A stretch of 50,152 nt of DNA from a virus, in the IMG/VR virus record IMGVR_UViG_3300048590_001393, positions 1 through 50,152 of that record; one strand, 5' to 3'. The position numbers and the translations under genes are program-made. Under the pieces are notes generated by a model, which worked only from the letters and a program-made list of their open reading frames with translations, ran no database searches and was not told where the DNA came from. Positions 704 to 15,756 of the stretch are shown here, in pieces (within the stretch, counting starts at the first letter, position 1; every line of letters begins with the position of its first letter).

Positions 704-889
704 ATGACAACTGAACTCCAAAAAGAAGCTGCCGAAATCATTCGGCAGGCAATCGCCTACGTGGAAGCCGGGTTTAGCCCAGGCGAACTATCGGGCGACG
801 AAACCATAATCTCCACACAGGCGGACGACGGACCAATCGCAACCTTCAACATCGCGGATGCCAGAGACTTGCTTGAGCGCCTCTCCTAA
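704..889 (+). CDS. Small acidic hypothetical protein
   Basis: 61 codons, starting at ATG 704 after a CCCTCTCCC...ACCAACCAA leader with no Shine-Dalgarno sequence. The protein is acidic and probably helical at both ends (TTELQKEAAEIIRQAIAYVE and NIADARDLLERLS), with a DETIISTQADDGP middle. No family recognised. It lies just upstream of the recombination cassette and is probably expressed with it. Confidence 0.6.
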   Translation: MTTELQKEAAEIIRQAIAYVEAGFSPGELSGDETIISTQADDGPIATFNIADARDLLERLS

Positions 890-920
890 ACTCTCTCCTT
901 CACCCAACCAACCAACCAAT

Positions 921-1727: not shown

Positions 1728-1825
1728 ACACTCCCCGCGCCTGCCAGTAGCTGGCCGATGCCTACGGGCTGCCAGTGAAGGGAAAGCGGCAGGCACCCAC
1801 TCTCACAAACCAACCGAAAACATGA
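1724..1825 (+). pseudogene. Tiny reading frame with in-frame TAG, fitted between two genes
   Basis: An ATG at 1724 overlaps the stop of the coiled-coil gene. The same frame ends in a TGA at 1823-1825 that overlaps the recT ATG. The ATGA junctions at both ends are typical of real genes in this genome. The frame of 33 codons is broken by TAG at 1748-1750. It reads MNTPRACQ, stop, then LADAYGLPVKGKRQ and a CCAACC-type leader. The second part resembles the core of a SAP helix-extended-loop-helix motif. It may be a decayed gene, a point mutation (GAG to TAG) or an amber-suppressed gene. Confidence 0.35.
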
Positions 1826-2724
1826 GCAACGAAATCATACTCAGCAACGAAACGCAGGCCTTCGAGCTTCTGCAACGCAAAGCAAACCTGCTATCCACAT
1901 CCACCCTTGTTCCCAAGGAGTTCCAAGGCAACATGGCCAACTGCGCCATTGGCCTGAACATCGCAAAGCGCCTTGGTGCTGACGAGTTCATGGTCCTGCA
2001 GAACATCGACATCATCCATGGCCGCCCGTCGTTCCGCGCAACCTTCCTGATCGCCATGGTGAATGCCAGCGGGCGATTCTCGCCATTGCAGTTCCGCATG
2101 GAAGGGCAAGGAGATACCCGCTCGTGCGTGGCGCATACCACCGTCCTCTCTTCGGGCGAAGTTGTGGAAGGTCCGGCCATCACGATGGCAATGGCCAAAG
2201 CGGAAGGCTGGAGCACAAAGAATGGCAGCAAGTGGCTGACCATGCCGGAACTGATGCTCCGCTATCGCGCCGCGGCATTCTTCGCCCGCATCTACGCGCC
2301 AGACATCACCCTTGGCATGCAGACCAGCGAGGAACTTTACGACACTGAGCCGACCATGCGCAACGTCACGCCGACCACGGCAGCGCCGAAGATCGAAGGC
2401 AACCCCTACGAGGAGCCCGCCAAGCCGAAGGCCGCGACCAAGCCGAAGGCAGCAGACAAGCAGGAGGCCGAAGTCGCACCAGAGCCCGCCGTGGAGCCCG
2501 AGGTTCTCGACTACCCTTCCCGCGTGGAAATGGTGAAGGACATCAAGGAGACGTGGAAAAAAGCGGAAATCAACGGGCTTCCCGCCGCCGAAGCCATCTA
2601 CAAGAAGAATGGCCTGCTGCCTCCGGATATGACGCTCTCGAAACTGAACGACGCGGAAGTGGCCCTGATCTGGAAGGCCGGTGCCGACGCCCTGAAAGTC
2701 AACAAGGATGGTGACGCGCAATGA
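1822..2724 (+). CDS. recT: RecT-family single-strand annealing protein
   Basis: 300 residues. RecT proteins bind single-stranded DNA and anneal complementary strands in phage recombination, together with a 5'-3' exonuclease. Hallmarks seen here are the helical N-terminus (QAFELLQRKANLLSTSTLVP), the core GRPSFRATFLIAMVNASGRF at about residues 71-90, a conserved AKAEGWSTKNGSKW segment and a TMPELMLRYRAAAFFARIYAPD block, followed by GMQTSEELYD. Residues 185-235 form a Lys/Pro/Ala/Glu linker, and a helical C-terminal domain follows. The start follows a CAAACCAACCGAAAAC leader. The YqaJ-type exonuclease gene about 600 bases downstream is the expected partner. The stop overlaps the next start. Confidence 0.93.
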   Translation: MSNEIILSNETQAFELLQRKANLLSTSTLVPKEFQGNMANCAIGLNIAKRLGADEFMVLQNIDIIHGRPSFRATFLIAMVNASGRFSPLQFRMEGQGDTRSCVAHTTVLSSGEVVEGPAITMAMAKAEGWSTKNGSKWLTMPELMLRYRAAAFFARIYAPDITLGMQTSEELYDTEPTMRNVTPTTAAPKIEGNPYEEPAKPKAATKPKAADKQEAEVAPEPAVEPEVLDYPSRVEMVKDIKETWKKAEINGLPAAEAIYKKNGLLPPDMTLSKLNDAEVALIWKAGADALKVNKDGDAQ

Positions 2725-2960
2725 ACCCGTTCCTCGAACAACTGCGCGGCAACATCCTGACCCCAGCGGAAGTCAACCGCCTGCGCCGCGCCGAACTCCG
2801 CCGCCGCGCCATCCGCAAGCGTGTTGTCCTCGATCGCTGCCGCACCCAGTCGCTCGAAGCCAAGGCAAAGCTGATCGTCACGCCCAAGGGCAAGAACGGA
2901 CGGAGCATGAATGTCGCGCTACTGGCACAGCACGGCATCAAGAAAGGGGGGCAGCCATGA
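2721..2960 (+). CDS. Small basic hypothetical protein
   Basis: 79 residues, with ATGA overlap to recT upstream and to the next gene downstream, so translation is probably coupled. It is very basic: residues 18-45 are arginine-rich (NRLRRAELRRRAIRKRVVLDR), followed by KGKNGRSMNVALLAQHGIKKGG. The basic character and its place between recT and the exonuclease suggest nucleic-acid binding, but this is inference. No known domain is recognised. Confidence 0.65.
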   Translation: MNPFLEQLRGNILTPAEVNRLRRAELRRRAIRKRVVLDRCRTQSLEAKAKLIVTPKGKNGRSMNVALLAQHGIKKGGQP

Positions 2961-3313
2961 GCGCCGACCTTTGGATGGGACTAGCCATCGGGTTAGCGGC
3001 CCCATGGCTACTGTTCCTTTTCTTCTCCGGCAAGCCGCAGCAAAAGCGGAACCTCGAAGACGCGAACGAGCTTCTGCGCGAGCGCAACCGGATCGGCGCG
3101 GAGATGCTGGATGTGCAGTGGGAGTTGTGGAGGAAAACACCGCCACGCCGCGAGCAGATCGCACGCTTGGCACTGCAAGGATATCTAGCCGGACGCATGC
3201 ACGATGACCGCGAAATGAAGCCGGGAGCCGCGCATCACAAATACATAGCAGAATCCTGTCTGCGATATACCGACGCATTGATTACTGCCTTGGATGGAAA
3301 GGAGGGCATGTGA
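2957..3313 (+). CDS. Single-pass membrane-anchored hypothetical protein
   Basis: 118 residues. ATG 2957 lies just behind a GGGGGG Shine-Dalgarno-like run. The N-terminus has one hydrophobic helix (LWMGLAIGLAAPWLLFLFFS, about residues 5-24). A charged cytoplasmic-type helix (RNLEDANELLRERNRIGAEM) and a helical tail follow. It has ATGA overlap upstream and shares its stop with the GTG of the exonuclease gene. Function unknown. A membrane protein inside a recombination cassette is unusual. Confidence 0.65.
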   Translation: MSADLWMGLAIGLAAPWLLFLFFSGKPQQKRNLEDANELLRERNRIGAEMLDVQWELWRKTPPRREQIARLALQGYLAGRMHDDREMKPGAAHHKYIAESCLRYTDALITALDGKEGM

Positions 3314-4011
3314 AAATTCACACGTTCGACCAATACAGCCCCGAATGGTGGGCTGCGCGTAAAGGGGTCATCACGGCATCCGAGGTTGGCGCGTTCGTCG
3401 TCAACTCCGGCAAGGTGGCAGAGAAAGCCCGCACCAAGCTCCTCTGCAAGAAGCTGGGAGAACACGCCGGCCAATTCGAGGAAGTGTTTCCTAACGACGC
3501 GATGAAACGCGGCACCGCCCTGGAGCCGTTCGCACGCAAGGCATACGCTGACCTGATGGGCTACGAGGTAACGGAAGTCGGATTTATTTCCCACGACCAT
3601 CTACCGCTTGGATGCTCCCCCGATGGCCTGATCTACGAGGGTGCGCTGATCAAGCACGGCCTCGAAATCAAGTGCCCCAGCGCCGCAACACATATCTCGT
3701 GGCTGATGGCTGACGAACTCCCCGACGACTACGCGTGGCAGGTCCACATGAGCATGATCCTCGCCCAAGCGGATCGGTGGGACTTCTTTGCTTACTGCCC
3801 GCTCGCCACGTTCCAGAAGGAGCGAGAAGCGTGGACCGTCCGCGACATCGAAGAGGGAGCCATCCCGCCGTTTCACAAGATCGTTCACCGCTCACGCTTC
3901 ACCGATGACCTTGAACGCGGATTGAAAAAACTCTGCGAACAATACGCGGACATGAAGCAGCGCATGGCGCGCCTTTACTCGGAAGTGTATGAAAGGAGGG
4001 CTGTCGCATGA
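3310..4011 (+). CDS. YqaJ/lambda-exonuclease-family 5'-3' exonuclease
   Basis: 233 residues with a GTG start at 3310 behind GGAGGG, overlapping the previous stop. The fold is the PD-(D/E)xK exonuclease of phage recombination systems, which resects DNA ends so that the annealase can load. Visible marks are the N-terminal SPEWWAARKGVITASEVG segment, RGTALEPFARKAY (helix with the conserved Glu), GCSPDGLI (metal-binding Asp), GLEIKCP (catalytic Glu-x-Lys) and YAWQVHMSM (Gln of the YqaJ motif). All catalytic residues are present and the length is normal. With RecT it forms a two-component recombination pair. Confidence 0.92.
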   Translation: MKIHTFDQYSPEWWAARKGVITASEVGAFVVNSGKVAEKARTKLLCKKLGEHAGQFEEVFPNDAMKRGTALEPFARKAYADLMGYEVTEVGFISHDHLPLGCSPDGLIYEGALIKHGLEIKCPSAATHISWLMADELPDDYAWQVHMSMILAQADRWDFFAYCPLATFQKEREAWTVRDIEEGAIPPFHKIVHRSRFTDDLERGLKKLCEQYADMKQRMARLYSEVYERRAVA

Positions 4012-4178
4012 GGCTGTCCCCCGAAGAGATGGAAGCCGCCAAGCGTGCCGCGCGCCGCCTGCATTGCCCTGGAGACATCGCAGGCAAGCACACGCTCCAG
4101 AAGGCGGTAGCCGAAGGGAAGCACCTCGTGTGGCGCTGCGTGAAGTGCGGATTTGAACCCGAACAAAAGAACCCATGA
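4008..4178 (+). CDS. Small protein with a Cys-x-x-Cys motif
   Basis: 56 residues, translated by hand from ATG 4008. It has a GGAGG sequence upstream and ATGA overlaps at both ends. It starts RLSPEEMEAAKRAARRLH and then has HCPGDIAGKH and, near the end, WRCVKCGFE. The CVKC pair and the earlier HC could form a small zinc site. Codon use matches the neighbours. Function unknown. Confidence 0.55.
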   Translation: MRLSPEEMEAAKRAARRLHCPGDIAGKHTLQKAVAEGKHLVWRCVKCGFEPEQKNP

Positions 4179-4351
4179 CAATGACTATCGTATCCATATC
4201 CCGCGACACAGAGGTAGCCACGTTCGCCAGACGCGCCGCCGAAGCGTTCCAGAAAACCCCCTCGATCTACACATGGGCCGAAGGTGATCCAACGCCCGGC
4301 CAACTCCTCGCCAACGAACTCCCTCCCCTCAACCGCCCTCCATTTTATTAA
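4175..4351 (+). CDS. Small hypothetical protein
   Basis: 58 residues from ATG 4175, which overlaps the previous stop; a second ATG lies two codons later. The sequence TIVSISRDTEVATFARRAAE followed by a proline-rich tail (PTPGQLLANELPPLNRPPF) matches no family known to me. The overlap and codon use support it as a gene. Confidence 0.5.
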   Translation: MTMTIVSISRDTEVATFARRAAEAFQKTPSIYTWAEGDPTPGQLLANELPPLNRPPFY

Positions 4352-4357
4352 CTCACC

Positions 4358-4549
4358 ATGAATGCAACCATAACCCACGAACTGAACCGGATGCCTCGCA
4401 ACATCGAGCAGCAACTGTCCGAACTCGAGCTGAAGCACATGCGCCATCAAGACCTGATGGGCTGGCAGGAGTACCAAAAGGCCGAAGCGCGCCGCCGCCA
4501 TCGCTACGGCGAGAACAAATACAAGCCTATCCCCATCCTGCTTGTCTAA
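4358..4549 (+). CDS. Small basic helical hypothetical protein
   Basis: 63 residues. The middle is helical and charged (NIEQQLSELELKHMRHQDLMG), followed by an arginine-rich stretch (EARRRHRYGENKYKP). The start lies 6 bases behind the previous stop with the leader TTAACTCACC and no Shine-Dalgarno sequence. No function assigned. Confidence 0.55.
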   Translation: MNATITHELNRMPRNIEQQLSELELKHMRHQDLMGWQEYQKAEARRRHRYGENKYKPIPILLV

Positions 4550-4583
4550 GCCTCTCCCACAACCCCAACCCCACGATACCGAA

Positions 4584-5117
4584 ATGCAACTAAACTCGAT
4601 CCACATCGACAACAAGGCCGTCACCATGAATGTGGTGGCCAACAAAGACACCGACGACACCAACGACCTGGTGGAATCTAAAATCACAGCCAAGGAAGAA
4701 CCCCTTCCTTCGCTGACCAAGGCATGGAACGCGCTCCCCGCCGTGTTCTGTGAAATCCTCGAACTGGACGCTTCCTACACGGCAGGCCTGACCATCACCA
4801 AGATGGCCATCCGTCGCACGAAGCAGGGAACCCGCAGCGTGATACTGCATGCCACCAAGCAACTGGAATGCCGCTCGGAGTTTCTGCACACGATGTCCAC
4901 CCCGTGCGTGCAGATCGACAAGGCCGCGGATGGCGAATCCGGAGCCGTGGAGATTGACAAGAAGTTGGCCGCCGCTGTGCAGAAGGCGATTCTCGAATCT
5001 GAGAAATACATGCAAGGCGAGCGCAGCCAGACGCTTCTGGACTTCGACTCCGCCAAGGCAGCGCTGCAAGCAACCGCCGATCTAGGCAAAGATAGTCTGT
5101 TTGCCTCCGGAAACTGA
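4584..5117 (+). CDS. Conserved-type phage protein of the recombination cassette, function unknown
   Basis: 177 residues. ATG 4584 is chosen because it follows a CCTCTCCC...CCCCAACCCC leader of the type seen before several genes here. The core (AWNALPAVFCEILELD, then TKMAIRRTKQGTRSVILHATKQLE, then IDKAADGESGAVEIDKKLAAAV, ending ERSQTLLDF) resembles proteins of unknown function that accompany RecT/exonuclease pairs in other phages. It is followed by a hairpin terminator, so it is probably the last gene of the recombination transcript. Confidence 0.7.
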   Translation: MQLNSIHIDNKAVTMNVVANKDTDDTNDLVESKITAKEEPLPSLTKAWNALPAVFCEILELDASYTAGLTITKMAIRRTKQGTRSVILHATKQLECRSEFLHTMSTPCVQIDKAADGESGAVEIDKKLAAAVQKAILESEKYMQGERSQTLLDFDSAKAALQATADLGKDSLFASGN

Positions 5118-5129
5118 ACTCCAACCCCC

Positions 5130-5160
5130 GTGCCGTGGCGGGTTTCCACGGCACACCTTT
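5130..5160 (+). terminator. Hairpin terminator after the recombination cassette
   Basis: Perfect 9-base inverted repeat GTGCCGTGG (5130-5138) and CCACGGCAC (5146-5154) with a 7-base loop CGGGTTT, followed by ACCTTTTC. It begins 12 bases past the stop of the preceding gene. The T-run is short, so it may be a weak intrinsic terminator or an mRNA-stabilising hairpin. It also argues against starting the next gene at GTG 5135. Confidence 0.65.
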
Positions 5161-5167
5161 TCACCCC

Positions 5168-5827
5168 ATGTCCAACGTCCCTGCCAAATTAAAAGGAGTC
5201 GAGTTTGAAGACCTGTTGATGCAAGCCGCCAACAGGGAAGAGAAGAACGGTGCCCTAACGATGAGTCGCTATGGGGTAACACTTTCCTACCAGAATGGCC
5301 AAACGCTCGGGGTGCCATCTAAGCCGGATTTTGAGGGAGTTCTTGCCACCGGACGGCAGTTCATCATCGAAGCGAAGGTTTGCGGTGATCCCGCCTTTCC
5401 GATGGTGGCCAAGCAGATCAAGCCGAAGCAAGTCCAACACATGCTGGACCGCTCACGATTCAATGTGCCGTGCTTCCTTGTGATACACTTCACGGCCCGC
5501 GTGATGAAGACATTCACTGATCCGGCAATAACCATTGCCATCCCGGTATCTGATGCAGATCCACGCTGGCAACGCTTTGTGGATGCCCACGCCGAAGCCA
5601 AGCGCCAGAGCAAGGCACAAGGCAAACCCGTGGCACCAGCGCCACAGGGCGGCATCTCACGCGATGATGCGCACAGGGTCGGCATCCTCATCCCCTGGGT
5701 GACACCTAAGGGCTGCCGCAAAGCATTGCCAGATCTAATTGCATTCCTGTGGCCGGAAGCGCGTCGCTTGGAACTTCCAACTCTTTTTCCAGACAACGCC
5801 ACTCCTCATCCTCCTTCAAGTCTCTAA
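5168..5827 (+). CDS. RecU-like PD-(D/E)xK nuclease, probable Holliday-junction resolvase
   Basis: 219 residues from ATG 5168, which lies beyond the terminator hairpin. The N-terminal half carries GKxFE-like KGVEFEDLLMQA, then VPSKPDFEGVL (metal-binding Asp) and FIIEAKV (Glu-x-Lys), the order seen in RecU resolvases that cut four-way junctions. A KQIKPKQVQHMLDRS helix and a beta-strand VPCFLVIHF follow, again as in RecU. The C-terminal 70 residues are proline-rich and less conserved. Its position after the annealase and exonuclease genes fits processing of recombination or replication intermediates. RecU versus another nuclease of this fold cannot be settled here. Confidence 0.75.
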   Translation: MSNVPAKLKGVEFEDLLMQAANREEKNGALTMSRYGVTLSYQNGQTLGVPSKPDFEGVLATGRQFIIEAKVCGDPAFPMVAKQIKPKQVQHMLDRSRFNVPCFLVIHFTARVMKTFTDPAITIAIPVSDADPRWQRFVDAHAEAKRQSKAQGKPVAPAPQGGISRDDAHRVGILIPWVTPKGCRKALPDLIAFLWPEARRLELPTLFPDNATPHPPSSL

Positions 5828-5831: not shown

Positions 5832-6167
5832 ATGGAAAACAAAACTCACGCCGCCCCGCCGGTTCCTCTCACACGACTTGTTCGGCTTTGGGATTCGATC
5901 CGCTACAATCGCTACGCCCTATTTGCTGGCATCGTCTGGCGACCAGTCACCGGAGACGCTGGTGACTCATGGCTCCAAACATGGCGCAAATATCGCATGT
6001 CATGGAAAACCGCGTGGGAAGTAGCCTGCGTGATTTATCCTCCACCGACGCAGAGTCCATCCACCCCGAATCGAAGCCTTAAGACCATGAACCAAAATCA
6101 GACACAATCGAAGCCGCAAAGCGCTGAAGAACCCACAGATGAGGGGGTGGATGAGACGGCTTGTTAG
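5832..6167 (+). CDS. Hypothetical protein with amphipathic/hydrophobic core
   Basis: 111 residues from ATG 5832. Residues 14-65 look globular (RLVRLWDSIRYNRYALFAG, then WLQTWRKYRMSWKTAWEVAC). From residue 70 the protein becomes a low-complexity Pro/Ser/Gln/Glu tail. It is the only other frame here that ends in TAG. A shorter product restarted at ATG 6087 is possible. No family recognised. Confidence 0.5.
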   Translation: MENKTHAAPPVPLTRLVRLWDSIRYNRYALFAGIVWRPVTGDAGDSWLQTWRKYRMSWKTAWEVACVIYPPPTQSPSTPNRSLKTMNQNQTQSKPQSAEEPTDEGVDETAC

Positions 6168-6414
6168 GCTTCTTTTTGGGGGGCCGTCCACGGGCTTCGT
6201 GCGCCCGAGCTATACCCCAGAGCCGCCAATCAGACGCATGGATTGCTGCCCATACTGCCGAGCAAAAATTCAGTCATCGCAGATAATCGGCGTATCACGC
6301 AGAGGTCACGTTCACGCCGATAAACGTGAATGGACGTGTGGAACGATGATCCGCCGCGATTTCTTCCGCGAGGTCGAGGTCAAGATTGGTTCTAATTGTG
6401 AGCCTAACGCATAA
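6151..6414 (+). CDS. Small zinc-ribbon-type protein
   Basis: 87 residues. ATG 6151 is preferred over ATG 6139 because GAGGGGG lies just before it. A basic N-terminus is followed by CCPYCRAK near residue 31 and WTCG near residue 62. Three or four cysteines plus nearby histidines could form a zinc ribbon. A later start at 6238 (MDCCPYC) is also possible. It lies just upstream of the methyltransferase gene. Function unknown. Confidence 0.55.
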   Translation: MRRLVRLLFGGPSTGFVRPSYTPEPPIRRMDCCPYCRAKIQSSQIIGVSRRGHVHADKREWTCGTMIRRDFFREVEVKIGSNCEPNA

Positions 6415-6418
6415 GCTC

Positions 6419-7267
6419 ATGGACGCCGACCTAAAGACTCTCGAACTCGCGCAGGACGCTCCTCGGCGTTCCATGCAGCGCCTTGTTGTGCATCTTGATT
6501 TATTCAGTGGGATCGGCGGCTTCGCGCTTGCGGCTCAGATGGTGGGCGGAATCAAAACGGCGGCATTCTGTGAGATAGACCCATGGGCGCGGCAAGTCCT
6601 CACCAAGAACTTCCCAAACATCCCGATCTGCGAGGATGTGAAAACACTCAACCCGAAAAACTATGGAACAATCGACCTTATTACAGGCGGATACCCTTGC
6701 CAGCCTTTCAGTGCTGCCGGGGAACGACGCGGCGAAGAAGATGCTCGCCACCTCTGGCCAGAAATGCGCCGGATTATTGAAGCCGCACGACCCCGTTGGG
6801 TGCTTGCTGAAAATGTTGCTGGTCACATCAGCATGGGACTCGACGAGGTGCTTGCTGACCTGGATGCCATCGGCTACGCCGCGACTGCGACCGTTATTCC
6901 GGCTTGTGCCGTTGGTGCCATCCATCGACGGGATCGAGTATGGATTACTGCCCACGATAGTCGCCTCGGAATACCGTGGGACATCGAGGCCAAGATACCG
7001 AGGATCGAAAGCCTACAAGGGCGCGAAGATGGCGGAAGGCTTGCGCCGCTCCGAGACATGCCCGCTCTACCTGCATCCGGTCTTTGCCGAGCGAGTGATG
7101 GGATACCCCGAAGGGTGGACAGACTGCGAGGGCTTGGAAACGCCATCGTGCCGCAAGTCGCCGCCGAAATCCTCCGATGCATGATGCGCGTCGATTCTTT
7201 GCACAACGCCCAAGCGATGGCATCCGCCGACGAGAAAACTCCGACTACACCAGAAAATGAGCACTGA
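6419..7267 (+). CDS. DNA (cytosine-5) methyltransferase
   Basis: 282 residues from ATG 6419. It transfers a methyl group from S-adenosylmethionine to C5 of cytosine in DNA. Motif I DLFSGIGGF (residues 27-35), motif IV GGYPCQPFS with catalytic Cys94, motif VI AENV (Glu131), motif VIII HRRDRVW and motif X GLGNAIVPQ (residues 238-246) are all present. The target-recognition region between VIII and X is very short, so the protein is smaller than most relatives. No restriction gene lies nearby, so self-protection of phage DNA or blocking of host restriction is likely. The overlapping frame at 7083-7184 reads a second C5-methyltransferase-like ending (see findings). Confidence 0.92.
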   Translation: MDADLKTLELAQDAPRRSMQRLVVHLDLFSGIGGFALAAQMVGGIKTAAFCEIDPWARQVLTKNFPNIPICEDVKTLNPKNYGTIDLITGGYPCQPFSAAGERRGEEDARHLWPEMRRIIEAARPRWVLAENVAGHISMGLDEVLADLDAIGYAATATVIPACAVGAIHRRDRVWITAHDSRLGIPWDIEAKIPRIESLQGREDGGRLAPLRDMPALPASGLCRASDGIPRRVDRLRGLGNAIVPQVAAEILRCMMRVDSLHNAQAMASADEKTPTTPENEH

Positions 7268-7571
7268 ATCCAACGACTCCGAAACACCCCAGAAGGCGGA
7301 TTGCAATCCGCGTCTTGTTAGCCCTCTTCGACCGCCGATACACTCCACGGTGCATCGGAACTACTGGGAGCGGTCACTGTATCCACACCCGAAAGTCCCC
7401 AGCGCGATCAAAGATGGGCGACTCATGCCCGATGCGGGATGGATGAGAGTGGAGCGCAATGGAGAGGTGACAGGCTTTGTATCGGATGGATGCGAGTGGA
7501 GCACTGTCTCTCTGGAGGAAAACGCCGCCGCAAAATCTCGGGCTAACGCTTATTCACAGGACCAGCCTTAA
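7257..7571 (+). CDS. Hypothetical protein
   Basis: 104 residues, overlapping the methyltransferase end by 11 bases. The N-terminal 30 residues are polar. The rest (YWERSLYPHPKVPSAIKDGR, then WMRVERNGEVTGFVSDG) looks like a small beta-rich domain. No family recognised. Codon use matches the surroundings. Confidence 0.55.
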   Translation: MSTESNDSETPQKADCNPRLVSPLRPPIHSTVHRNYWERSLYPHPKVPSAIKDGRLMPDAGWMRVERNGEVTGFVSDGCEWSTVSLEENAAAKSRANAYSQDQP

Positions 7572-7585: not shown

Positions 7586-8578
7586 ATGACAGCAATACAA
7601 CTCCAACGCAAAGAGCTTGAAATCAACAAGATGCGCTCATATATCCGCATGCAAGGGAAAGCAATTACCACAGAGCGGAGTTATTGCCGTTGGGTGGGGA
7701 AATACATCGAGTTTCTATGCCTCCAACAATGGGATGCAGACACGACTTCACGCCGCAAAGTGGAGGCATTCTTGACCGCAGAAGCGGAACGTGACGTGGC
7801 ATCCAGCACGCAGAACAGCGCATTTGCCGCAATCCTCTATTACTACGAGCACATCCGTAAAGAGAAGCTGGAGAATGTGGATGCTTTACGGTCCAAGGTT
7901 GGTGAGCGCGTGCGCGTAGCACCGAGCCGTGACGACGTGCGCAAGGTTTTGATGGCGGTCCAGGACTCAGGCGGATACCCCACCCGCCTCATTTCTCACC
8001 TAATGTATGCCTGCGGCCTGCGCATTGGCGAGACGCTGGCGATCAGAATCAAAGACATCGACCTTGACGCCGCCAAGCTGACGATCATCGAGGGCAAGGG
8101 AAAGAGTGACAGGTTTATCAATATCCCGCCGATGATGATCCCTCACCTCCGTTTGCAACTCACCGTCGCGGAATCCTACGCAGCGAAGTTCCGCGCCCAA
8201 GGTGTGCCGATCAAGATGCCGTCGCTGCACGGCAAGAAATCGCCGCAGTCCCAATTCCAACGCCGCTGGGCATGGCTTTTCCCGCTCGATCATCCGTGCC
8301 GTGATCCTCGCGGCGATGGTCTGGTAACGTGGCACTGCTTGGCAGGCCCGGTGCGCTGTGCAATCGCCTTAGCCTGCAAGCGCAGCGGGGTGGAGGGACT
8401 CAGTCCCCATCATCTCAGGCACGCATGGGCAACGCACTCGGCTGATGCCGGAGCACGCATCCAAGACATTCAAGAGATACTTGGTCACAAGGACATCAAG
8501 ACCACCCTGCGCTATATCCGGCCCGATCCAGAGCGCGTCCCTTCTCCGATTGAAACTCTTTTCCACCGATCCGCATGA
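7586..8578 (+). CDS. Tyrosine recombinase (integrase) with integron-integrase-like features
   Basis: 330 residues. It cuts and rejoins DNA through a covalent tyrosine link, as in phage integration or excision. The N-terminal SAM-like core-binding domain is at residues 12-100. Catalytic set: Arg146 (CGLRIGE), Lys171/Lys173 (GKGKSDR), His275 and Arg278 (SPHHLRHAW), His301 (LGHKDIKTT), Tyr310 (LRYIRP). Between the beta region and SPHHLRH there is a segment WLFPLDHPCRDPRGDGLVTWH. Its layout (WxFP...DPRxG...H) matches the extra helix region of IntI integron integrases rather than ordinary XerC/D. There is no integron cassette array in the window. It suggests a temperate phage. No excisionase or attachment site was identified. 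Confidence 0.9.
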   Translation: MTAIQLQRKELEINKMRSYIRMQGKAITTERSYCRWVGKYIEFLCLQQWDADTTSRRKVEAFLTAEAERDVASSTQNSAFAAILYYYEHIRKEKLENVDALRSKVGERVRVAPSRDDVRKVLMAVQDSGGYPTRLISHLMYACGLRIGETLAIRIKDIDLDAAKLTIIEGKGKSDRFINIPPMMIPHLRLQLTVAESYAAKFRAQGVPIKMPSLHGKKSPQSQFQRRWAWLFPLDHPCRDPRGDGLVTWHCLAGPVRCAIALACKRSGVEGLSPHHLRHAWATHSADAGARIQDIQEILGHKDIKTTLRYIRPDPERVPSPIETLFHRSA

Positions 8579-8874
8579 ACACCTACACCCTCACCGACAC
8601 CGCGGAGACCATCGCGGATAACCCCGAAGGCATTGCGCACCAAGAAGCCGCAGAGAAGGACTACGCCGCCTACGGTGCCGACCTGCGCGACGACTGCCTT
8701 GCTCTGCTCCACAGCGTAAGCCGCCGCCTCTCCGGCCACGAGATCGCCATGTGCCAGGCTGCCGCAGGCCAGCGCGACGACATCAAGGGGATCGACTGCG
8801 CGGTGATCGACCGCCTCCGGGCGGAGTTCCCAAGAGAGATCGCCCAAGCCAAGGAAATCCTCGCCCGCAGATGA
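8575..8874 (+). CDS. Small acidic hypothetical protein
   Basis: 99 residues, with ATGA overlap to the integrase gene, so co-translated. Mostly helical and acidic (NPEGIAHQEAAEKDYAAYGA, then VIDRLRAEFPREIAQAKEIL). There is no helix-turn-helix motif clear enough to call it an excisionase, although that is a natural suspicion from its place. Function unknown. Confidence 0.6.
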   Translation: MNTYTLTDTAETIADNPEGIAHQEAAEKDYAAYGADLRDDCLALLHSVSRRLSGHEIAMCQAAAGQRDDIKGIDCAVIDRLRAEFPREIAQAKEILARR

Positions 8875-8897
8875 TCCAAGAAATCTCCACTTTTGCC

Positions 8898-8937
8898 AGT
8901 TGCGCCCGTGTTTCGATTCCGGGCGGGGTGGCAGATT
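8898..8937 (+). promoter_or_regulatory. Phage promoter-like element, copy 1
   Basis: AGTTGCGCCCGTGTTT at 8898-8913, then 18 bases, then CAGATT (8932-8937) as -10-like hexamer. The seven bases before the element (TTTTGCC) are the same as in copy 2. It lies at the head of the block with the AT-rich accessory gene, replication initiator and helicase. Predicted start of transcription is near 8945. Confidence 0.65.
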
Positions 8938-8981
8938 TACAGCGTCAACCGCCGTTTGGAACCGGCCTGACCCTCACCAGC

Positions 8982-9428
8982 ATGACACTAAAAAAGCAAA
9001 CAGCCTCCGATTCTCTTCATCCGCCCGTAGTTCATGCCGGGGTTCCAACGGGTGGGGAGAGTCGGGGGTTTTTTGATACCATGAAGACACTTACCGACAA
9101 TGTTGTAATAAAACTTCTACGCATCGAAGTAGAACATTCAAAAAAGGTGGAAAAACTAGAGGAAGCGCTAGGAACGGAACACTCTAATTTGCATCTAGAT
9201 TTGATAGACCTCGTGCTGGACGTGCTTGGCATTCCTGTTGACAACACTTGCGAAACAAACGCCTGCGAAATTGCGAATACAACCGGTGTATGGCCCGAGA
9301 ATGCCTATTGCCGTGACGATTGGTATGAACAGTGGTATGACATCAAGAGCGGGAAATCCAAAGTAACCATAGAAGAATTTCCATCATGGGCCAGAGAGCA
9401 ACTGAAAGGGGGCCAAGGTGGCCGGTGA
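8982..9428 (+). CDS. AT-rich hypothetical accessory gene
   Basis: 148 residues from ATG 8982, or 115 from ATG 9081. The first 33 residues are low-complexity, and the globular part begins MKTLTDNVVIKLLRIEVEHS, so 9081 may be the real start. Helical N-terminal half with a Lys/Glu coiled coil (KKVEKLEEALGTEHSNL), then a cysteine pair (NTCETNACEI) and an aromatic segment (YCRDDWYEQWYD). Codons are clearly more AT-rich than in neighbours. Together with its own promoter this is the look of a moron, a late-acquired accessory gene. Function unknown. Confidence 0.6.
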   Translation: MTLKKQTASDSLHPPVVHAGVPTGGESRGFFDTMKTLTDNVVIKLLRIEVEHSKKVEKLEEALGTEHSNLHLDLIDLVLDVLGIPVDNTCETNACEIANTTGVWPENAYCRDDWYEQWYDIKSGKSKVTIEEFPSWAREQLKGGQGGR

Positions 9429-10158
9429 CTGGATCAAAGTAGAAAAGGCCACCCCCACCAAGATGGAGGTTTTGGCTATCTCTGAATTACTCGAAATTCA
9501 CCCCGCGCACGCCTTCGGGCTGTGTGTAAAATTCTGGATGTGGTGTGACGACCACCTGACGGATGGTAACGCAAAGCGCGTTACCAAGAAAACGCTCGAT
9601 TACGTTATTGGGCACGATGGCATGACAGATGCGCTCCTTAAAGTTGACTGGCTCCGAGACCGCTCCGGCTCTCTCGAAGTCCCTCACTTTGATCGGCATC
9701 TTTCCGAAGGCGCTAAGAATAGGGCACTTACGAAAGAACGAGTCAGAAAATCGAAAGCAAAAAGTAACGAAACGAGCGTAGCGAAGGTAACGCATACACC
9801 GTTACCAGAGAAGAGAAGAGAAGAGAAGAGAGAAGAAGATAATAGGGCGGCTTCGCCGGCATCTGTCGATAACGGATCATTTGACATCAAAGATCCTCCC
9901 CCGCCTCCAAAGCCAAAACGATTCCAAAAGCCAACCGTCGATCAGATCGCGGAATACGCATTCGAGATCAATGCCGGCATCAACGCCGAAACATTCTTCG
10001 ACTACTACGAATCCAAGGGCTGGATGATCGGCAAGACCCCCATGAAGGACTGGAAGGCATCTGTCCGCACATGGAAAAGGTCCAGCAACCCACAACCGGC
10101 CACCGCTCACGCAAACGGCTTCACACCACTCTTTCCCGGCCACCGCCCAGGCAAATGA
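9418..10158 (+). CDS. Replication initiator/helicase-loader-like protein
   Basis: 246 residues, GTG start at 9418 overlapping the previous gene. The N-terminal 110 residues (DWIKVEKATPTKMEVLAISE, then LCVKFWMWCDDHL) look like the winged-helix region of phage replication initiators. A highly charged linker follows (EKRREEKREEDN), and then a C-terminal domain PTVDQIAEYAFEINAGINAE...FFDYYESKGWMIGKTPMKDWK, which resembles the tail domain of many phage O/DnaD-like proteins that load the helicase. The DnaB-type gene follows with a 4-base overlap. The gene contains inverted GGTAACGC repeats and a purine tract that could be the origin, as in the lambda O gene. Confidence 0.75.
   Translation: MAGDWIKVEKATPTKMEVLAISELLEIHPAHAFGLCVKFWMWCDDHLTDGNAKRVTKKTLDYVIGHDGMTDALLKVDWLRDRSGSLEVPHFDRHLSEGAKNRALTKERVRKSKAKSNETSVAKVTHTPLPEKRREEKREEDNRAASPASVDNGSFDIKDPPPPPKPKRFQKPTVDQIAEYAFEINAGINAETFFDYYESKGWMIGKTPMKDWKASVRTWKRSSNPQPATAHANGFTPLFPGHRPGK
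9565..9839 (+). other. Candidate replication origin inside the initiator gene
   Basis: GGTAACGC (9565-9572) and its complement GCGTTACC (9578-9585) form a perfect palindrome with a 5-base loop. A second GGTAACGC (9786-9793) faces GTTACC (9801-9806). Directly after it lies a 33-base purine-only tract built of AGAGA units (9807-9839), then AT-richer ATAATAG. Inverted iterons plus an easily opened tract inside an initiator gene resemble the lambda origin within O. Function is inferred. Confidence 0.4.
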
Positions 10159-11540
10159 ACCAAGACGATACCACAACACCCTTCCCACATAGCATCATTG
10201 CTGAAAAATCCGTCGTTTCCGCCATCTTTGGCGATCCGGATCTGATGGCCGAGGCACCATACCTCAACGATGACCACTTTCACCTGCCGGGTCCGCGAGT
10301 GATCTTCCAAGTTCTCCAGCATTTCATTGCTCACGGGAAGCCGATGGACGCCAAATGCCTGCTGCAACACCTCCTTGACAAAAGCCTGCTGCAACGAGTT
10401 GGAGGGCCGTCAGAAGTGGCCGACCTGCTGCGTTTCGACAACAACCCAGCGCGCTTTCTCTTCCACATCAACACCCTGAACGACAAGCTGGCCCGCCGCA
10501 TGGCGATTATGGCAGCGGAAACCATACGGGTGGCCGCGTACGAAGCCGAAGACACCAGCGAGCTTGTGGAGGCCACATCCGCGCCAATATCCGCAATCCA
10601 CGACACGCTCCTTGCCCTACGGCCGGCAGACACGATGAAAATGGTGATGAGCGAGGTAATTGCCGACCTCAACGCCAAGATGAGCGGGGAGCGCTCTTCC
10701 ATCGGCATCCGGACCAACATCCCCTGCATCGATCATAAGCTGATGGGGCTGCACCCTGGGCGCACCACCATCATTTCCGGATACCCCTCGGGCGGGAAAT
10801 CCGTATTGGGCGGCCAACTGTGCGCGGAAGCCTTCATGCAGGGGAAGCAGACGCTGTTCATCAGCCTAGAAATGTCCAAGGCTGACCTTTCCAAGCGATT
10901 GCTCGCCTATGTGGCAGATATGAAGGGCATGGCCATCAGCGACCCGGTGGAATACGCCATCAGGCAAAGCACAGCAGAAGGCCAACCCGAAAGAAAAAAG
11001 CTGAACGCCGTCGAGCTTTCAAAGCTCGTACGTGCCACAAAAACAATCATCGAAGCCCCCTTCGAGATAGAGCGCCTGACGGGAGCCACCGAACAGACTA
11101 TTTCCGCGGTGATCCGCAAACACCACCGCAAGAGCCCGCTGGCCGTCGTGTGCGTGGACTACGCCCAGCGGATCCGCCCGTCATCCGAAATGAAAGGCCA
11201 GAACAGGGAGCAGCAGCTTTCCCACGCATCCAAGGTCTTGGCCGACCTAGCGGCAGAGCTTGGGTTTCACCTTCTGCTTCTATCCCAACTCAACAAGGAA
11301 GGTGCCGCCAAACACGCGGAAGCGCTGAACGAAGACTGTGACCTGCACCTGCAAATTTTACAGAGCAAGGACAACAAGGAGCACATCGGCCTAGCCGTTC
11401 CAAAAGACCGTCACCACGGCCAATGCGGTGCCCTGCTGTCTGTTGTGCTCGATGAGGAGCACCTGCGCTTCATCGAAGTGGATAAGCGCCCAGAACCCCA
11501 ACAAGCCCAACACCGCAAGGAACGTCGCCATGAAAACTGA
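10155..11540 (+). CDS. dnaB: Replicative DNA helicase, DnaB family
   Basis: 461 residues from ATG 10155, overlapping the initiator stop. It unwinds DNA at the phage replication fork. The N-terminal helical domain begins with HSIIAEKSVVSAIFGDPDLM, as in DnaB. The RecA-like motor has Walker A GYPSGGKSV (residues 209-217), a LFISLEMSKADLSKRL segment after it (H1a), Walker B AVVCVDYAQRI, and a LLLLSQLNKEG motif (H3). The C-terminal arginine-finger region is shorter than usual (VPKDRHHGQCGA). No primase gene was found in the window, so host primase may be used. Confidence 0.92.
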   Translation: MNQDDTTTPFPHSIIAEKSVVSAIFGDPDLMAEAPYLNDDHFHLPGPRVIFQVLQHFIAHGKPMDAKCLLQHLLDKSLLQRVGGPSEVADLLRFDNNPARFLFHINTLNDKLARRMAIMAAETIRVAAYEAEDTSELVEATSAPISAIHDTLLALRPADTMKMVMSEVIADLNAKMSGERSSIGIRTNIPCIDHKLMGLHPGRTTIISGYPSGGKSVLGGQLCAEAFMQGKQTLFISLEMSKADLSKRLLAYVADMKGMAISDPVEYAIRQSTAEGQPERKKLNAVELSKLVRATKTIIEAPFEIERLTGATEQTISAVIRKHHRKSPLAVVCVDYAQRIRPSSEMKGQNREQQLSHASKVLADLAAELGFHLLLLSQLNKEGAAKHAEALNEDCDLHLQILQSKDNKEHIGLAVPKDRHHGQCGALLSVVLDEEHLRFIEVDKRPEPQQAQHRKERRHEN

Positions 11541-11808
11541 ACTCCAACGCCTTGCCAGCACCGCAGAGCGCATGTTGCTCCGGCCCGCGCCAACCCCTAT
11601 CCCCTCCCCGCTTCTCCCGAAGGTGGGAGACATCGCCACCTACCTACGCGCAGGCCGCATACGCAGGCACTCCGGCTATGTCAAAGAGCATGCTCCACTG
11701 CCCGTGCTCGCCGTCAAAGTCGCCCCGCAACACCCCGAGTGGAAAGAAATTTGGGTTCAGATCGAAGAGATCAAAGCTGCGCAGAAAGGAGGCCACGATG
11801 CCGCGTGA
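11530..11808 (+). CDS. Small hypothetical protein
   Basis: 92 residues. ATG 11530 overlaps the helicase end. A helical start (TELQRLASTAERMLLRP) is followed by a proline-rich bridge and a beta-like region (VGDIATYLRAGRIRRHSGYV, then EWKEIWVQIEEIKAA). No family recognised. It overlaps the next start. Confidence 0.6.
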   Translation: MKTELQRLASTAERMLLRPAPTPIPSPLLPKVGDIATYLRAGRIRRHSGYVKEHAPLPVLAVKVAPQHPEWKEIWVQIEEIKAAQKGGHDAA

Positions 11809-12148
11809 AAAGACCAACGACGCCTGGACCGAGTATGACGCCCCTTGGGTGGAGGAGACCGACATCCCCTTCACCTACCGAGTCGAATCCCGCTCCGATA
11901 AGGACTTCGCATTCCACACCGTGGACCTCACCCAGCGCGGCGGGCATGGTGCGTGTACTTGCAGATTCTTCACAATTCGCGCGGCCTCCAACTTCCGGCG
12001 ACATTTCCGACACATTCCCTACGCCCCGAAGCGGGAAGGAGTGTCGGAATGCGTCCACATCCGGGCCGCCCTTGATCACTACCACCAGCACGTCACCATC
12101 CCCATGCTCGCCAACTTCCGCCACGGAATACCAACAAACAACCAATGA
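11798..12148 (+). CDS. SWIM-type zinc-finger-like small protein
   Basis: 116 residues. ATG 11798 follows GGAGG by a short spacing. It has the pattern Cys-x-Cys (GACTCRFF) and, 36 residues later, Cys-x-His (SECVHIRAA), the CxC...CxH ligand order of SWIM domains, which bind DNA or proteins. The helix between the ligands is arginine/histidine-rich (SNFRRHFRHIPY). It lies in the replication block, so a DNA-related role is plausible but unproven. Confidence 0.6.
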   Translation: MPREKTNDAWTEYDAPWVEETDIPFTYRVESRSDKDFAFHTVDLTQRGGHGACTCRFFTIRAASNFRRHFRHIPYAPKREGVSECVHIRAALDHYHQHVTIPMLANFRHGIPTNNQ

Positions 12149-12387
12149 GAACCAGAAAACAAATCCTCCAGGACCGAATCCGCCGAATCGTGGCGCACCG
12201 CGACAATCCAACCGCGCCAGTGGATGCCGCCACACTGCTACACATCGAGGGGCAGCGACTATTGAGCGTCGGGAACCCGCTCGCGCAAAAGATGTCGTGG
12301 TCCCTGAGGCTTGCAGCCGCCAAGCTCGAATCGTGGGGCGACCCCGCGTGCATGGTGCGCTATCAAAAAATCCCCACCAACCCATGA
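12145..12387 (+). CDS. Small basic hypothetical protein
   Basis: 80 residues with ATGA overlaps on both sides. Basic N-terminus (RTRKQILQDRIRRIVAHRDN) and helical C-terminus (MSWSLRLAAAKLESWG). No family recognised. The coupled overlaps and codon use support expression. Confidence 0.6.
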   Translation: MRTRKQILQDRIRRIVAHRDNPTAPVDAATLLHIEGQRLLSVGNPLAQKMSWSLRLAAAKLESWGDPACMVRYQKIPTNP

Positions 12388-12581
12388 AACGCCCAAGACC
12401 CATCAGCCTGCCCATCGAGGTGCAGATCACTCCCCGACTGCTCGCCGCGGTCGAGGGCTCCATCGGACGCAGGCTCTCACCAGGCTGCAAGGTCATGGTG
12501 GTGCCCCCGCCCCCGCCGCTGGACGAAATCCACATGACCAAACAAGACTTGGTGAAGATGGCAAAACGAACAACCCCATGA
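12384..12581 (+). CDS. Small hypothetical protein
   Basis: 65 residues from ATG 12384, in a chain of ATGA-overlapping genes. Contains ISLPIEVQITPRLLAAVEG, a poly-proline run (VVPPPPPLDEIH) and a basic end. Function unknown. Confidence 0.55.
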   Translation: MKRPRPISLPIEVQITPRLLAAVEGSIGRRLSPGCKVMVVPPPPPLDEIHMTKQDLVKMAKRTTP

Positions 12582-12856
12582 ACCACCCATACAACTTCCC
12601 CACCATCAGGATCAACCGCAAGCAGTTCCTCCTGTACGAAGGCATCATTACCCAAGTGACGGCCATCGAGATCACCGCCAGCGCCGTGCTACTCCGGCCA
12701 GCGCACAATATCACGAGGCATGCGCACCGCGAATCCTTCGCCCATGCTGACGGCTTCGCCTGCTGGGAGGAAATGCGCCAGTGGTTTGAGAACCAACACG
12801 GCCTACCCTTCACCGGCATCCTTATCCAGTGGAACCCAATCCCCAAACAACCATGA
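12578..12856 (+). CDS. Conserved-type small phage protein
   Basis: 92 residues from ATG 12578 (ATGA overlap). It begins with a short beta region (PTIRINRKQFLLYEGIITQV) and ends ADGFACWEEMRQWFENQHG followed by LPFTGILIQW. This ending (ADGF, W..M..WF, HGLPF.G.LI.W) is typical of small phage proteins of unknown function that I associate with the ASCH/PUA-like RNA-binding fold. That link is from memory and not certain. Confidence 0.6.
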   Translation: MNHPYNFPTIRINRKQFLLYEGIITQVTAIEITASAVLLRPAHNITRHAHRESFAHADGFACWEEMRQWFENQHGLPFTGILIQWNPIPKQP

Positions 12857-12890
12857 AAACGCCTCTGTCGAGGCACGCCAAAAATAGATC

Positions 12891-13253
12891 ATGAATACAC
12901 CAACCAACTCCGAGGCGTTACCTCTCACGAATTGTTCCTTTTTGGCGTTGATCCCCGAATGGGATGCTGCGGTCGAGAAAAAATGGAAGGAGGTGCGCGA
13001 CTCCAAGGGACATTGGATCGCCATCTACTCGCCTCAATGGGGGCACTCCGAGGATCTGCGCCGCCGCCGTGAAACATCAATGGAGGTGATACGCTGGACA
13101 GCGGAATGGTTTAAGGAGCGCGGACACCAGATCGAATGCCAGATCATGGAAGACGGCGAGAGTATCGGAATCCGTGAAGCGAACAACCCCAGCACAGCCG
13201 CCGAAGGTCGGCTGATGCGGCCTGTTCGTTTTGCCAGTTGCGCCCGTGTTTAA
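12891..13253 (+). CDS. Hypothetical protein ending inside promoter copy 2
   Basis: 120 residues from ATG 12891. Contains LIPEWDAAVEKKWKEVRDSKG, WIAIYSPQWGHSEDLRRRRE and IRWTAEWFKERGHQIEC. The last residues (FASCARV) are encoded by the promoter-like element itself, so the stop TAA lies at its edge. A promoter embedded in the end of a gene suggests that the element was fixed before or independently of the frame. No family recognised. Confidence 0.6.
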   Translation: MNTPTNSEALPLTNCSFLALIPEWDAAVEKKWKEVRDSKGHWIAIYSPQWGHSEDLRRRRETSMEVIRWTAEWFKERGHQIECQIMEDGESIGIREANNPSTAAEGRLMRPVRFASCARV

Positions 13254-13275
13254 AAATCTCGACAGGGTGCATAAA
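13236..13275 (+). promoter_or_regulatory. Phage promoter-like element, copy 2 (before terminase genes)
   Basis: AGTTGCGCCCGTGTTT at 13236-13251, an 18-base spacer, then CATAAA (13270-13275), with TAAAAT overlapping it. The predicted transcript start near 13283 leaves a 5' leader of about 30 bases before the terminase small-subunit ATG at 13316. Position at the start of the packaging genes suggests a late promoter. Confidence 0.7.
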
Positions 13276-13315
13276 ATCTCGCCACGCCGATAGGTGAGAA
13301 ACCGTCCAAGCTACC

Positions 13316-13927
13316 ATGAAAGCCACAACGAAGCCAAAAGCGAAGAAGGGGAAGACTCCGACGAAGAAAGCGGAAAAGCTCCAACCCAAGCACGAACGCT
13401 TTGCGGAGCTTGTGGCTGCCGGAATGCCCGACACCGAAGCGTACATTCAGTCTGGATGCGGGAAAACTGAGGCATCAGCCTTGAAGAACGCATGGAGAGT
13501 GAGGGATATTGAGGGAGTGAAGGCCAAAATTGCGGAGCTTACCGCCCCTAAGTCCGCTGAACTGGAGAGAACCAAGAAGGAAAACCTCCAGTGGCTCACG
13601 GATTGCATCGTGACTCCCATATCGGCAATCGGCCCCGATTCCCCTTTGTGCGTCGAATATGTGGAAGAGTTTGTGGCCGGAGGATCGCGCGGGAAACTCA
13701 AGCGAGGGCAAGCAGATTCAGGCAATGAGGTAGCCGGGCCCGACATCATCCGCAGGAGAGTTAAGAAGGCCGACCCACTCCGCGCAATGGAACTGTTCGC
13801 CCGCATGCGCGGTCACTTCGAGCCCGACCGCGTGGAAGTGGAAGCCGGACCGAAAACCCTGATGACAATCAAAGAACGCGCCGCCCAGGTCTCAAGCGCC
13901 CTTGCCCTCCGATACCAACGCAAATGA
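13316..13927 (+). CDS. terS: Terminase small subunit
   Basis: 203 residues. It recognises phage DNA for packaging and passes it to the large subunit. The N-terminal 22 residues are very basic. A helix-turn-helix follows (ERFAELVAAGMPDTEAYIQSG), then GKTEASALKNAWRVRD, as in terminase small subunits of the Terminase_2 type. The middle is a helix (AKIAELTAPKSAELERTKKE), and ADPLRAMELFARMRGHFEPD is the usual oligomerisation/C-terminal part. The stop overlaps the start of the large-subunit gene. Confidence 0.85.
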   Translation: MKATTKPKAKKGKTPTKKAEKLQPKHERFAELVAAGMPDTEAYIQSGCGKTEASALKNAWRVRDIEGVKAKIAELTAPKSAELERTKKENLQWLTDCIVTPISAIGPDSPLCVEYVEEFVAGGSRGKLKRGQADSGNEVAGPDIIRRRVKKADPLRAMELFARMRGHFEPDRVEVEAGPKTLMTIKERAAQVSSALALRYQRK

Positions 13928-15756
13928 GCGCAGAGCCCGAAATTGTGACGCAGTTCCGCCGCGTCCTCGATGAAACCAGCGAGGAAGACCTGCAGGTGAT
14001 GGCCTACAAGTCCCCTGCTCTCCATTTTGCGCTCTACATGGAGATCAAGGACAAGAATGCCAACTACATCAGACCTTTCCCCAATGTTCTCCAGCTCAGG
14101 ATTTCCCAAGCGATCGAGACGCTACGCGAATACTGCGCGGGCACCAGGATACGCCTGATCGTTGTGAAGCCACGTCGGGCTGGCTGTTCTACCTTCTCCC
14201 TTCACTGCGGCTACCATGAGGCACAGCGCCGCCCGATCGAGGGAATCACCATTGCGGACTGCGGAGACAACTCGAAGATGCTCATGGAGCGCTTGGCCGA
14301 CTACTCCGGCCACGACTCCTTTCCGTGGGACAATCCCCTGACAGCCGACAACACCAGCAACAAGGCATGGGCAAATGGATCGTCTTGGGTGATCGACACA
14401 GCGGAAAACCCGGATGCCGGTGTGGGTGGCACACGCCAGTTCGGACACTTCTCGGAGGTTGCCAAATATCCGCAAACCACCGTCAAGAACGACGTGAAGA
14501 CGATGACGGCCGCTCTCCCCTCGCTGGATGGTGACGACACGATCGGAATTGCAGAATCCACACCGGAAGGCGCGGTCGGTTGGATGCACGGCACCTTCAC
14601 CGAGAAGGCCATGTGGCTGGAAGACTTCCTTGCCCGATGGGAGCAGGGATTCAGGCCGGAGGAAGTCTGGATCCGCATCTTCGCCGGCTGGTGGGAGTTC
14701 GACGACTACCGCCGCAAGACACCGGTGAGCGATCACGAGCGCCAACACATCGAGGATACACTTTCCACCATCGAGGCCGAAGAGAGGGAGAAATACGATC
14801 TCACCTACGAGCAACTAGCATGGAGACGCGACACGATCGACAGCCAATGCGACGGCGACCCCAAGATTTTCGCCTACTACTACCCGAGCGACCCTGTTTC
14901 CTGCTGGCTTCACTCCGGCTCCCCGCGCTTCGACGTGGCCAAGCTGGCCGACATGAAGCACAGGGCGGAGTTGATCACACCTGACCGCGGCTTCCTCGTG
15001 AAGCAGGACAACGGGCCGGTGGTCTGGCAGTCCACTTGGGACGGCTCCGGTGACATCCAGATGTGGGAACAGCCGAAAAACGGCATGGCCTACCTGATCG
15101 CTTGCGACCCCGCCACCGGTGCCAGCCAGACGAAAGGCGCAGATCCGGACGCGACATCGATTCTGGTCCTTCGCGGGAAATACCACGATCCGGACCTTGG
15201 CCGGACACTGCCCGTAAAGGTGGTGGCCAGGGTGCGCGCCCCGTTCTTCGAGGATGATGACATCGTGGGCCGGTATGTCTGCCGACTCTCCGAGTTCTAT
15301 GGGCGGTGCATCACGGTGCTAGAAGTGAACCAAGGCCTGCACGTTCTCCGCGTCCTCAAGGATGCTGGGATTCCCCTCTACAAGCGGGTGGTGGAATCGG
15401 CCAAGACCAAGCGCATGGAAGAACAGTATGGCTTCAAGCTCAACGACCAGAATCAGCGCCGGATGGTAATCGACGGGTTGGCAGCGGCGCTCCGCAACGA
15501 TGAAATCGACATCCCCTGCCCTCACATCCTGCATGAACTGATGAAGTTCGTAAGAACCAAGACCGGACGCTACGAAGCAGCGCCCGGTGAACACGATGAC
15601 GACGTGATGGCGCTCGGCATGGCATGGGAGGTAATCCCCCACGCCACCATCAAGGCTCGCCGTGTGGTCCGTGACGTGGATCCGCCCGACATGGCCAAGC
15701 CCGGCACACGTCGAGCAGGCTGGAGAGTGACCAACGCGACCAAAACAGGCTGGTGA
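13924..15756 (+). CDS. terL: Terminase large subunit
   Basis: 610 residues. ATP-driven packaging motor with a nuclease domain that cuts the DNA concatemer. Walker A variant VVKPRRAGCS at residues 80-89. Walker B region FGHFSEVAKY. The C-terminal RNase H-like nuclease has IACDPATG (Asp395), the middle acidic strand ITVLEVNQG and EHDDDVMALG (Asp558-560). The length is at the long end for the family. Overlaps terS by 4 bases. The cutting mode (cos, pac or direct repeats) cannot be inferred. Confidence 0.92.
   Translation: MSAEPEIVTQFRRVLDETSEEDLQVMAYKSPALHFALYMEIKDKNANYIRPFPNVLQLRISQAIETLREYCAGTRIRLIVVKPRRAGCSTFSLHCGYHEAQRRPIEGITIADCGDNSKMLMERLADYSGHDSFPWDNPLTADNTSNKAWANGSSWVIDTAENPDAGVGGTRQFGHFSEVAKYPQTTVKNDVKTMTAALPSLDGDDTIGIAESTPEGAVGWMHGTFTEKAMWLEDFLARWEQGFRPEEVWIRIFAGWWEFDDYRRKTPVSDHERQHIEDTLSTIEAEEREKYDLTYEQLAWRRDTIDSQCDGDPKIFAYYYPSDPVSCWLHSGSPRFDVAKLADMKHRAELITPDRGFLVKQDNGPVVWQSTWDGSGDIQMWEQPKNGMAYLIACDPATGASQTKGADPDATSILVLRGKYHDPDLGRTLPVKVVARVRAPFFEDDDIVGRYVCRLSEFYGRCITVLEVNQGLHVLRVLKDAGIPLYKRVVESAKTKRMEEQYGFKLNDQNQRRMVIDGLAAALRNDEIDIPCPHILHELMKFVRTKTGRYEAAPGEHDDDVMALGMAWEVIPHATIKARRVVRDVDPPDMAKPGTRRAGWRVTNATKTGW

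Follow-up and report, generated by a model that had tools for sequence, protein, structure and literature searches.

Does the integron-integrase-like recombinase encoded in this phage genome insert the phage into integron-like or folded sites of its host, as an earlier note on this DNA had suggested, or does it serve an integron that the phage itself carries? The window, by which we mean the whole 50,152-bp stretch analyzed here, is the record IMGVR_UViG_3300048590_001393 of a bacterial virus in IMG/VR; it comes from an environmental sample, and its first codon is ATG and its last TAA. Integrons are familiar as the gene banks of bacteria; the examples described so far in phages are mostly pieces captured from hosts. 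We consider it very probable that the locus is a phage-borne integron with inverted cassettes that exchanges mainly DNA-modification genes. The recombinase gene lies among the following genes.

858 to 5827, + strand: phage recombination genes (exonuclease, RecT, RecE/YqaJ, RecU-like; PHROGs and Pfam), with the attC array 3' of them
7586 to 8578, + strand: intI-like tyrosine recombinase, 330 aa (TIGR02249, PDB 2a3v and trees)
8575 to 15756, + strand: early and packaging genes (replication initiator, DnaB, TerS, TerL; PHROGs), downstream of the integrase gene on the same strand

The portal gene is likewise on the + strand. The TerL of the window is 44% identical to a protein of the Verrucomicrobiota genome G208 and at most 27% identical to those of named phages, and because it is closest to the G208 copy and distant from named phages, the host is probably a member of the Verrucomicrobiota. 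Homologs of both TerL (44%) and portal occur in G208 (contig C12, about 29.8-61.3 kb), and neither an IntI-like gene nor an attC was found in that region. The window also contains, at 15811-32868 on the + strand, a single ORF of 5,685 aa that takes up a third of the genome and has weak matches to polyvalent-protein ADP-ribosyltransferase and methyltransferase domains, in the manner of a giant polyvalent protein.

The integrase and its relatives

The earlier note had described the product of 7586 to 8578 as a recombinase with the full R-K-HxxR-H-Y set and an IntI-specific insertion, and both observations were borne out. The catalytic residues (R146, K171, H275-x-x-R278, H301, and Y310) align with those of IntI and Xer proteins. 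The top NCBIfam family is TIGR02249, “integron integrase” (3.7e-61), with XerA, XerC, and XerD behind it, at a score of 207 bits that falls under the curated cut-off of 265 bits. The top PDB sequence is VchIntIA/IntI4 (2a3v, 2e-38), and the alignment is unbroken across the IntI-specific segment, which is absent from Xer proteins; W219, P232, H240, and H241 of VchIntIA correspond to W228, P241, W249, and H250 of the window enzyme. Structure prediction and phylogeny, the checks that the same note had called for, point the same way. An AF2 model (pLDDT 85) matches 2a3v at an E-value of 2.6e-22, with XerA as the next family (1e-11), while a tree of 56 proteins separates a group of IntI and the window clade from Xer with support of 100/100, the clade itself receiving 100/99. 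A tree of 111 proteins agrees, with the window integrase nested within IntI. The enzyme thus groups apart from XerC and XerD and carries the IntI insertion, and on these alignments and trees it is a divergent IntI, one of a distinct and mostly phage-borne clade of integron integrases.

Members of this clade were found on roughly 45 IMG/VR contigs and a few Verrucomicrobiota genome contigs, and a single-protein search with the window integrase returned distant matches only. Several of the IMG/VR contigs are fragments, and phage hallmark genes, checked on a subset, were found for L123, L131, L142, L129, and the window. In VchIntIA, P232, H240, and H241 hold the extrahelical base T12'' of the attC site, and W219 touches G20'' (PMC3053210). 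W219 and P232 are nearly always conserved in the clade. Unlike in the integrases of bacterial integrons, an aromatic residue (W, Y, or F) always takes the place of H240, and the H241 position is Arg across most of the clade (His in the window); given these changes, the substrate preference of the clade integrases may have shifted. Outside the window clade, a phage from a DAMO enrichment (L015, Virus Rctr41k) encodes at 4680-5678 a bona fide IntI-family protein that scores 383 bits, above the cut-off, and is annotated merely as integrase-like.

Recombination sites beside the integrase gene

Two loci of the clade, L271 (on the same contig as L167) and L168, are chromosomal integrons of Verrucomicrobiota, which prompted a search for attC sites at the phage loci. 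L271 carries an IS110-like transposase gene besides its cassettes and attCs, and two attC-like repeats, 94% identical, are present in L168; by eye, IS110-like transposase genes lie inside both cassette arrays (L271 2210-3430 and L168 1113-2370). A strict scan turned up attC-like pairs 5' of the integrase gene in many phage loci; it gave 56 matches in 1.5 Mb, whereas 0.55 Mb of shuffled sequence gave 1. The strict pattern (RYYYAAC...GTTRRRY) found zero attCs in the window because the R boxes there vary. They were found by a covariance model, R1, which was trained on 12 attCs from the strict scan with the window sites excluded. Its top three matches in the 50 kb are the window's three attCs, all on the - strand and just 5' of the integrase gene; these sites and an attI had been missed by the earlier note, which had proposed such a search.

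6044 to 6169, - strand: attC3 (R1 18.9 bits, E 0.0085 over the window; 13/13 pairs, two bulges six apart)
6402 to 6491, - strand: attC2 (R1 47.8 bits, E 7e-10 over the window; 13/13 pairs)
7201 to 7322, - strand: attC1 (R1 26.5 bits, E 1.2e-4 over the window; 12/13 stem pairs, two bulges six apart)
7541 to 7560, - strand: attI, with the core GGCTAAC (GTTAGCC on the - strand) and then GCTTATTC, about 40 bp 5' of the integrase start codon

All three attCs have two extrahelical bases six apart, as read by IntI enzymes. The best of them, attC2, has the stem CATGGA(A)CGCCGA/TCGGCGTCCATG, extrahelical bases of the form T-N6-C, and the R' core GCCTAAC (+ strand), and it scores only 2.2 bits with R1 on the + strand. 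The extrahelical bases of attC1 are also T-N6-C and its R' core is GCACAAC (+ strand), while the R' core of attC3 is degenerate (ACCGACG), without AAC. Both outer sites score low, and a methylase ORF runs through the attC1 core; these two sites seem to be partly decayed, and the array copy in the window may be partly fixed or decayed. Thermodynamic folding of the whole attCs gave weak z-scores (-0.6 to -1.1), a measure that was uninformative here.

At most loci of the clade, R1 detected attC arrays in the same place and on the same strand, with up to 13 sites (L133). L046 (10973-11855) is unlike the remaining clade in having its attCs 3' of the integrase gene, and an R1 search of related Verrucomicrobiota DNA (80 kb) found no attC. 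The attI motif (AAC-N3/4-GATT/TATT) is kept in most clade members, 25-59 bp 5' of the integrase gene. L138 has, beside this usual attI, an extra attI-like copy (2530-2575; 91% over 46 bp) about 0.8 kb 3' of the gene. The starts of the contigs L132 and L137 coincide with the attI core or lie close to it, just 5' of the integrase gene, as would be expected if the population varies in cassettes. With an attI beside intI and cassettes bounded by attCs with extrahelical bases, the locus has the make-up of an integron. Elsewhere in the window, a 16-bp exact repeat, AGTTGCGCCCGTGTTT, occurs in five copies (8898, 13236, 15763, 33167, and 41185, + strand), mostly in gaps shortly 5' of genes. Scattered as they are before genes, the copies were rejected as att sites, and their placement suggests a promoter-like or other regulatory element specific to this phage.

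Cassette genes and their orientation

Three cassette genes of the window fit between these sites, all on the strand of the integrase gene.

6139 to 6414, + strand: 91-aa gene (ORF and stop position), with its start within attC3 and its stop just beyond the attC2 core
6419 to 7267, + strand: C5-cytosine DNA methyltransferase (PF00145 8.4e-41; phrog_363 2e-77); the ORF is listed from TTG 6386, and the ATG at 6419 falls within attC2
7257 to 7571, + strand: 104-aa gene closest to attI (ORF), with its start within attC1, its stop just beyond the attI core, and zero Pfam matches

Recognizable cassette cargo (Pfam) at the window and other loci of the clade consists of the following genes.

Window, L127, L133, and L143, + strand: C5 methylases
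L133 and L134, + strand: N6/N4 methylases
L129, + strand: MT-A70
L144, + strand: Mom
L125, + strand: PAPS-reductase-like protein

All cassette ORFs with Pfam domains were found on the + (integrase) strand, mainly + ORFs having been selected for testing; five - strand cassette ORFs tested against Pfam had no domains. Of the 105 attC cores, 33 contain the stop of a + ORF with a length of 60 aa or more, compared with 5.6% at random positions, and 14 contain that of a - ORF with the same minimum length. The orientation was less clear and less one-sided in a second set of loci, and ORF length by itself left the cassette strand undecided (59 vs 45).

The polarity of an attC is determined by its extrahelical bases, and recombination takes place at the R' box (PMC2727003). 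When we looked for two bulged bases six apart on one arm, 75 of the 105 clade attCs were placed on the - strand and 3 on the +, and none of 525 shuffled sequences passed. Most of the bulges are T-N6-C, the type that IntI1 uses efficiently (PMC3053210), and a class 1 control attC has T-N6-G on the gene strand. In the R1 controls (Vibrio phage p16, a Vibrio plasmid, a class 1 integron, and L271), the attC lies on the gene strand and 3' of the gene, whereas the phage cassette genes are mostly on the strand opposite to the attC. Domain matches, stop positions, and attC polarity together settle the cassette strand: as read from these, the cassette unit is an attC followed by a gene, running toward attI and the integrase gene, and is inverted relative to ordinary integrons.

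Several features of the phage loci are nonetheless those of bacterial integrons such as class 1 integrons and the Vibrio superintegrons, namely an IntI with the conserved patch, an attI 5' of the integrase gene, an attC array extending from attI, the polarity of the attCs relative to the integrase gene, and promoterless cassettes. They differ in that the cassette genes are mostly inverted to the attC, toward attI and the integrase gene, and in that the array sits in a phage early region. Canonical integron cassettes read away from attI, and the canonical layout of genes on the attC strand, away from attI and divergent from intI, is not the one found here. In the atypical integron of Treponema, intI reads toward attI and the genes come after attI (PMC3607928). 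The integrase and cassette genes share a strand there too, but the phage genes read toward attI and the integrase gene follows, so that the phage arrangement is a third layout beside the canonical one and that of Treponema. The chromosomal integrons L271/L167 and L168 share the integrase clade and have attC-like sites 5' of the integrase gene, but the cassette gene of L271 is on the attC strand.

Natural recombinants and their meaning

Comparisons among relatives of the window phage uncovered products of recombination at these sites. L131 and L145 were recovered from different metagenomes and share a stretch of 11,002 bp at 100% identity, which extends from attI across the integrase gene to phage genes including portal; a further 127 bp on their left side are identical as well. 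Two cassettes of L145 are missing from L131, in which an attC core (TCTAAC) is joined base-exactly to the right half of attI (GATGTTTCTGCAAC). L295 and L303 have 99.2% identity across the 7 kb that run rightward from the attI AAC, with unrelated cassettes leftward, so that the AAC of attI is the recombination junction in both pairs. L293 matches the end of an L145 cassette as far as the core and diverges beyond it, and phages that are otherwise unrelated (L142/L297, L133/L325, L129/L141, and L129/L286) have attCs with 93-98% identity that end at the cores or close to them. Further support for the attC polarity comes from the position of the junction, which falls at the left (R') core. To the extent that sequence comparison can tell, these exact recombinants show that the integron system works in nature. 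Site-specific gain, loss, and exchange of cassettes at attI and attC cores were seen in the relatives, and the window itself gave no such variant. We infer that the window's own enzyme would catalyze the reaction; a host integrase acting in trans may also be a source of the relatives' recombinants.

It is highly improbable that the attC-like elements have nothing to do with the recombinase and are hairpins, such as terminators, that separate early genes. They do lie between co-directional genes and their folding z-scores are weak, but the R cores and attI are conserved, the T-N6-C bulges have a fixed polarity, and recombinants exactly at the cores contradict such a reading.

The recombinants also bear on the proposal that the enzyme is a lysogeny integrase, with an attP beside its gene and a host attC/attI or dif-like site as attB. 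A Vibrio prophage bordered by attC sites has been reported (PMC9892861), the integrase is the sole PF00589 protein in 10 of 13 related phage records, and the record ends with ATG and TAA could be those of a provirus trimmed at gene borders. We nevertheless regard this proposal as very unlikely. The integrase gene and array are located inside the early region and not at either end, a second tyrosine-recombinase-like match is present in 3 of the 13 records, and the phage variants differ in cassettes at attI, not in phage junctions. Clade members (E 1e-95) were detected in only two of 388 Verrucomicrobiota genomes, G016 and G163; G016, like L168, represents a chromosomal integron, and the G163 copy is 2-3 kb from a contig end. 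A search of the same 388 genomes for prophage junctions found no integrated copy with readable ends. The trees, the patch, the fold, and the adjoining attCs support two parts of the earlier interpretation, IntI ancestry and the use of folded sites. Its suggestion that the phage integrates into integron-like sites lacks support, as the phage's own attI and array adjoin the integrase gene and relatives vary by cassettes at attI. The clade integrase most likely shuffles cassettes instead of lysogenizing the phage.

A further alternative, which we likewise consider very unlikely, is that the locus stems from a chance capture of host chromosomal integron DNA and is decayed and inactive, like the integron pieces of known Vibrio and Shewanella prophages. 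The integrases of L271/L167 and L168 belong to the same clade, and two of the three window attCs have weak scores. Against this, the window integrase is intact, the array-attI-integrase layout is common to many unrelated phages of the clade, near-identical phages show fresh exact recombinants, and the cassette gene of L271 has the canonical orientation while those of phages are mostly opposite.

In the phage-borne integron that we favor, the integrase would bind folded single-stranded attC sites through its conserved patch and recombine them with the attI about 40 bp 5' of its gene, so that cassettes could be inserted, deleted, and swapped within the phage early region. As the cassette genes are co-directional with the early genes, the early transcript would express any docked cassette. 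Because the recurrent cargo is DNA-modification enzymes, which would counter restriction, the array is most likely an exchangeable bank of anti-restriction genes. We lean toward the broader view, with less assurance than for the locus itself, that tailed phages, probably of Verrucomicrobiota, have their own lineage of reversed-polarity integrons, with cassettes expressed from the early transcript and a shared pool of DNA-modification cassettes swapped to escape restriction.

Integrons in phages are already known: Qi et al. described integrons in four phages as well as CALINs, some with methylases, and functional attCs in virulent phages (Qi et al. 2023, PMC9892861). Integron parts and methyltransferase cassettes in phages are common to that study and ours. 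The complete integrons reported there are captured host or class 1, Vibrio, or Shewanella types (PMC9892861), whereas the present integrase clade is a separate one that recurs in many unrelated phages; it has an attI of its own and inverted cassettes, and their exchange is visible. Three of those four phages were included in our trees, and their integrases (Vibrio, L250; P1, L249; Shewanella, L016) fall outside the window clade. No dedicated phage integron lineage or inverted cassettes were described in the literature searched, preprints and most subscription papers lying outside it. If our reading is true, it raises the questions of where the single-stranded attC comes from, phage replication being a candidate, and of whether phages feed cassettes to bacterial integrons. 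A dedicated and recurring phage integron for the exchange of anti-restriction genes would represent a new route by which phages change their defense-evasion genes, and the polarity of integron cassettes would be reversible to fit a different transcription plan.
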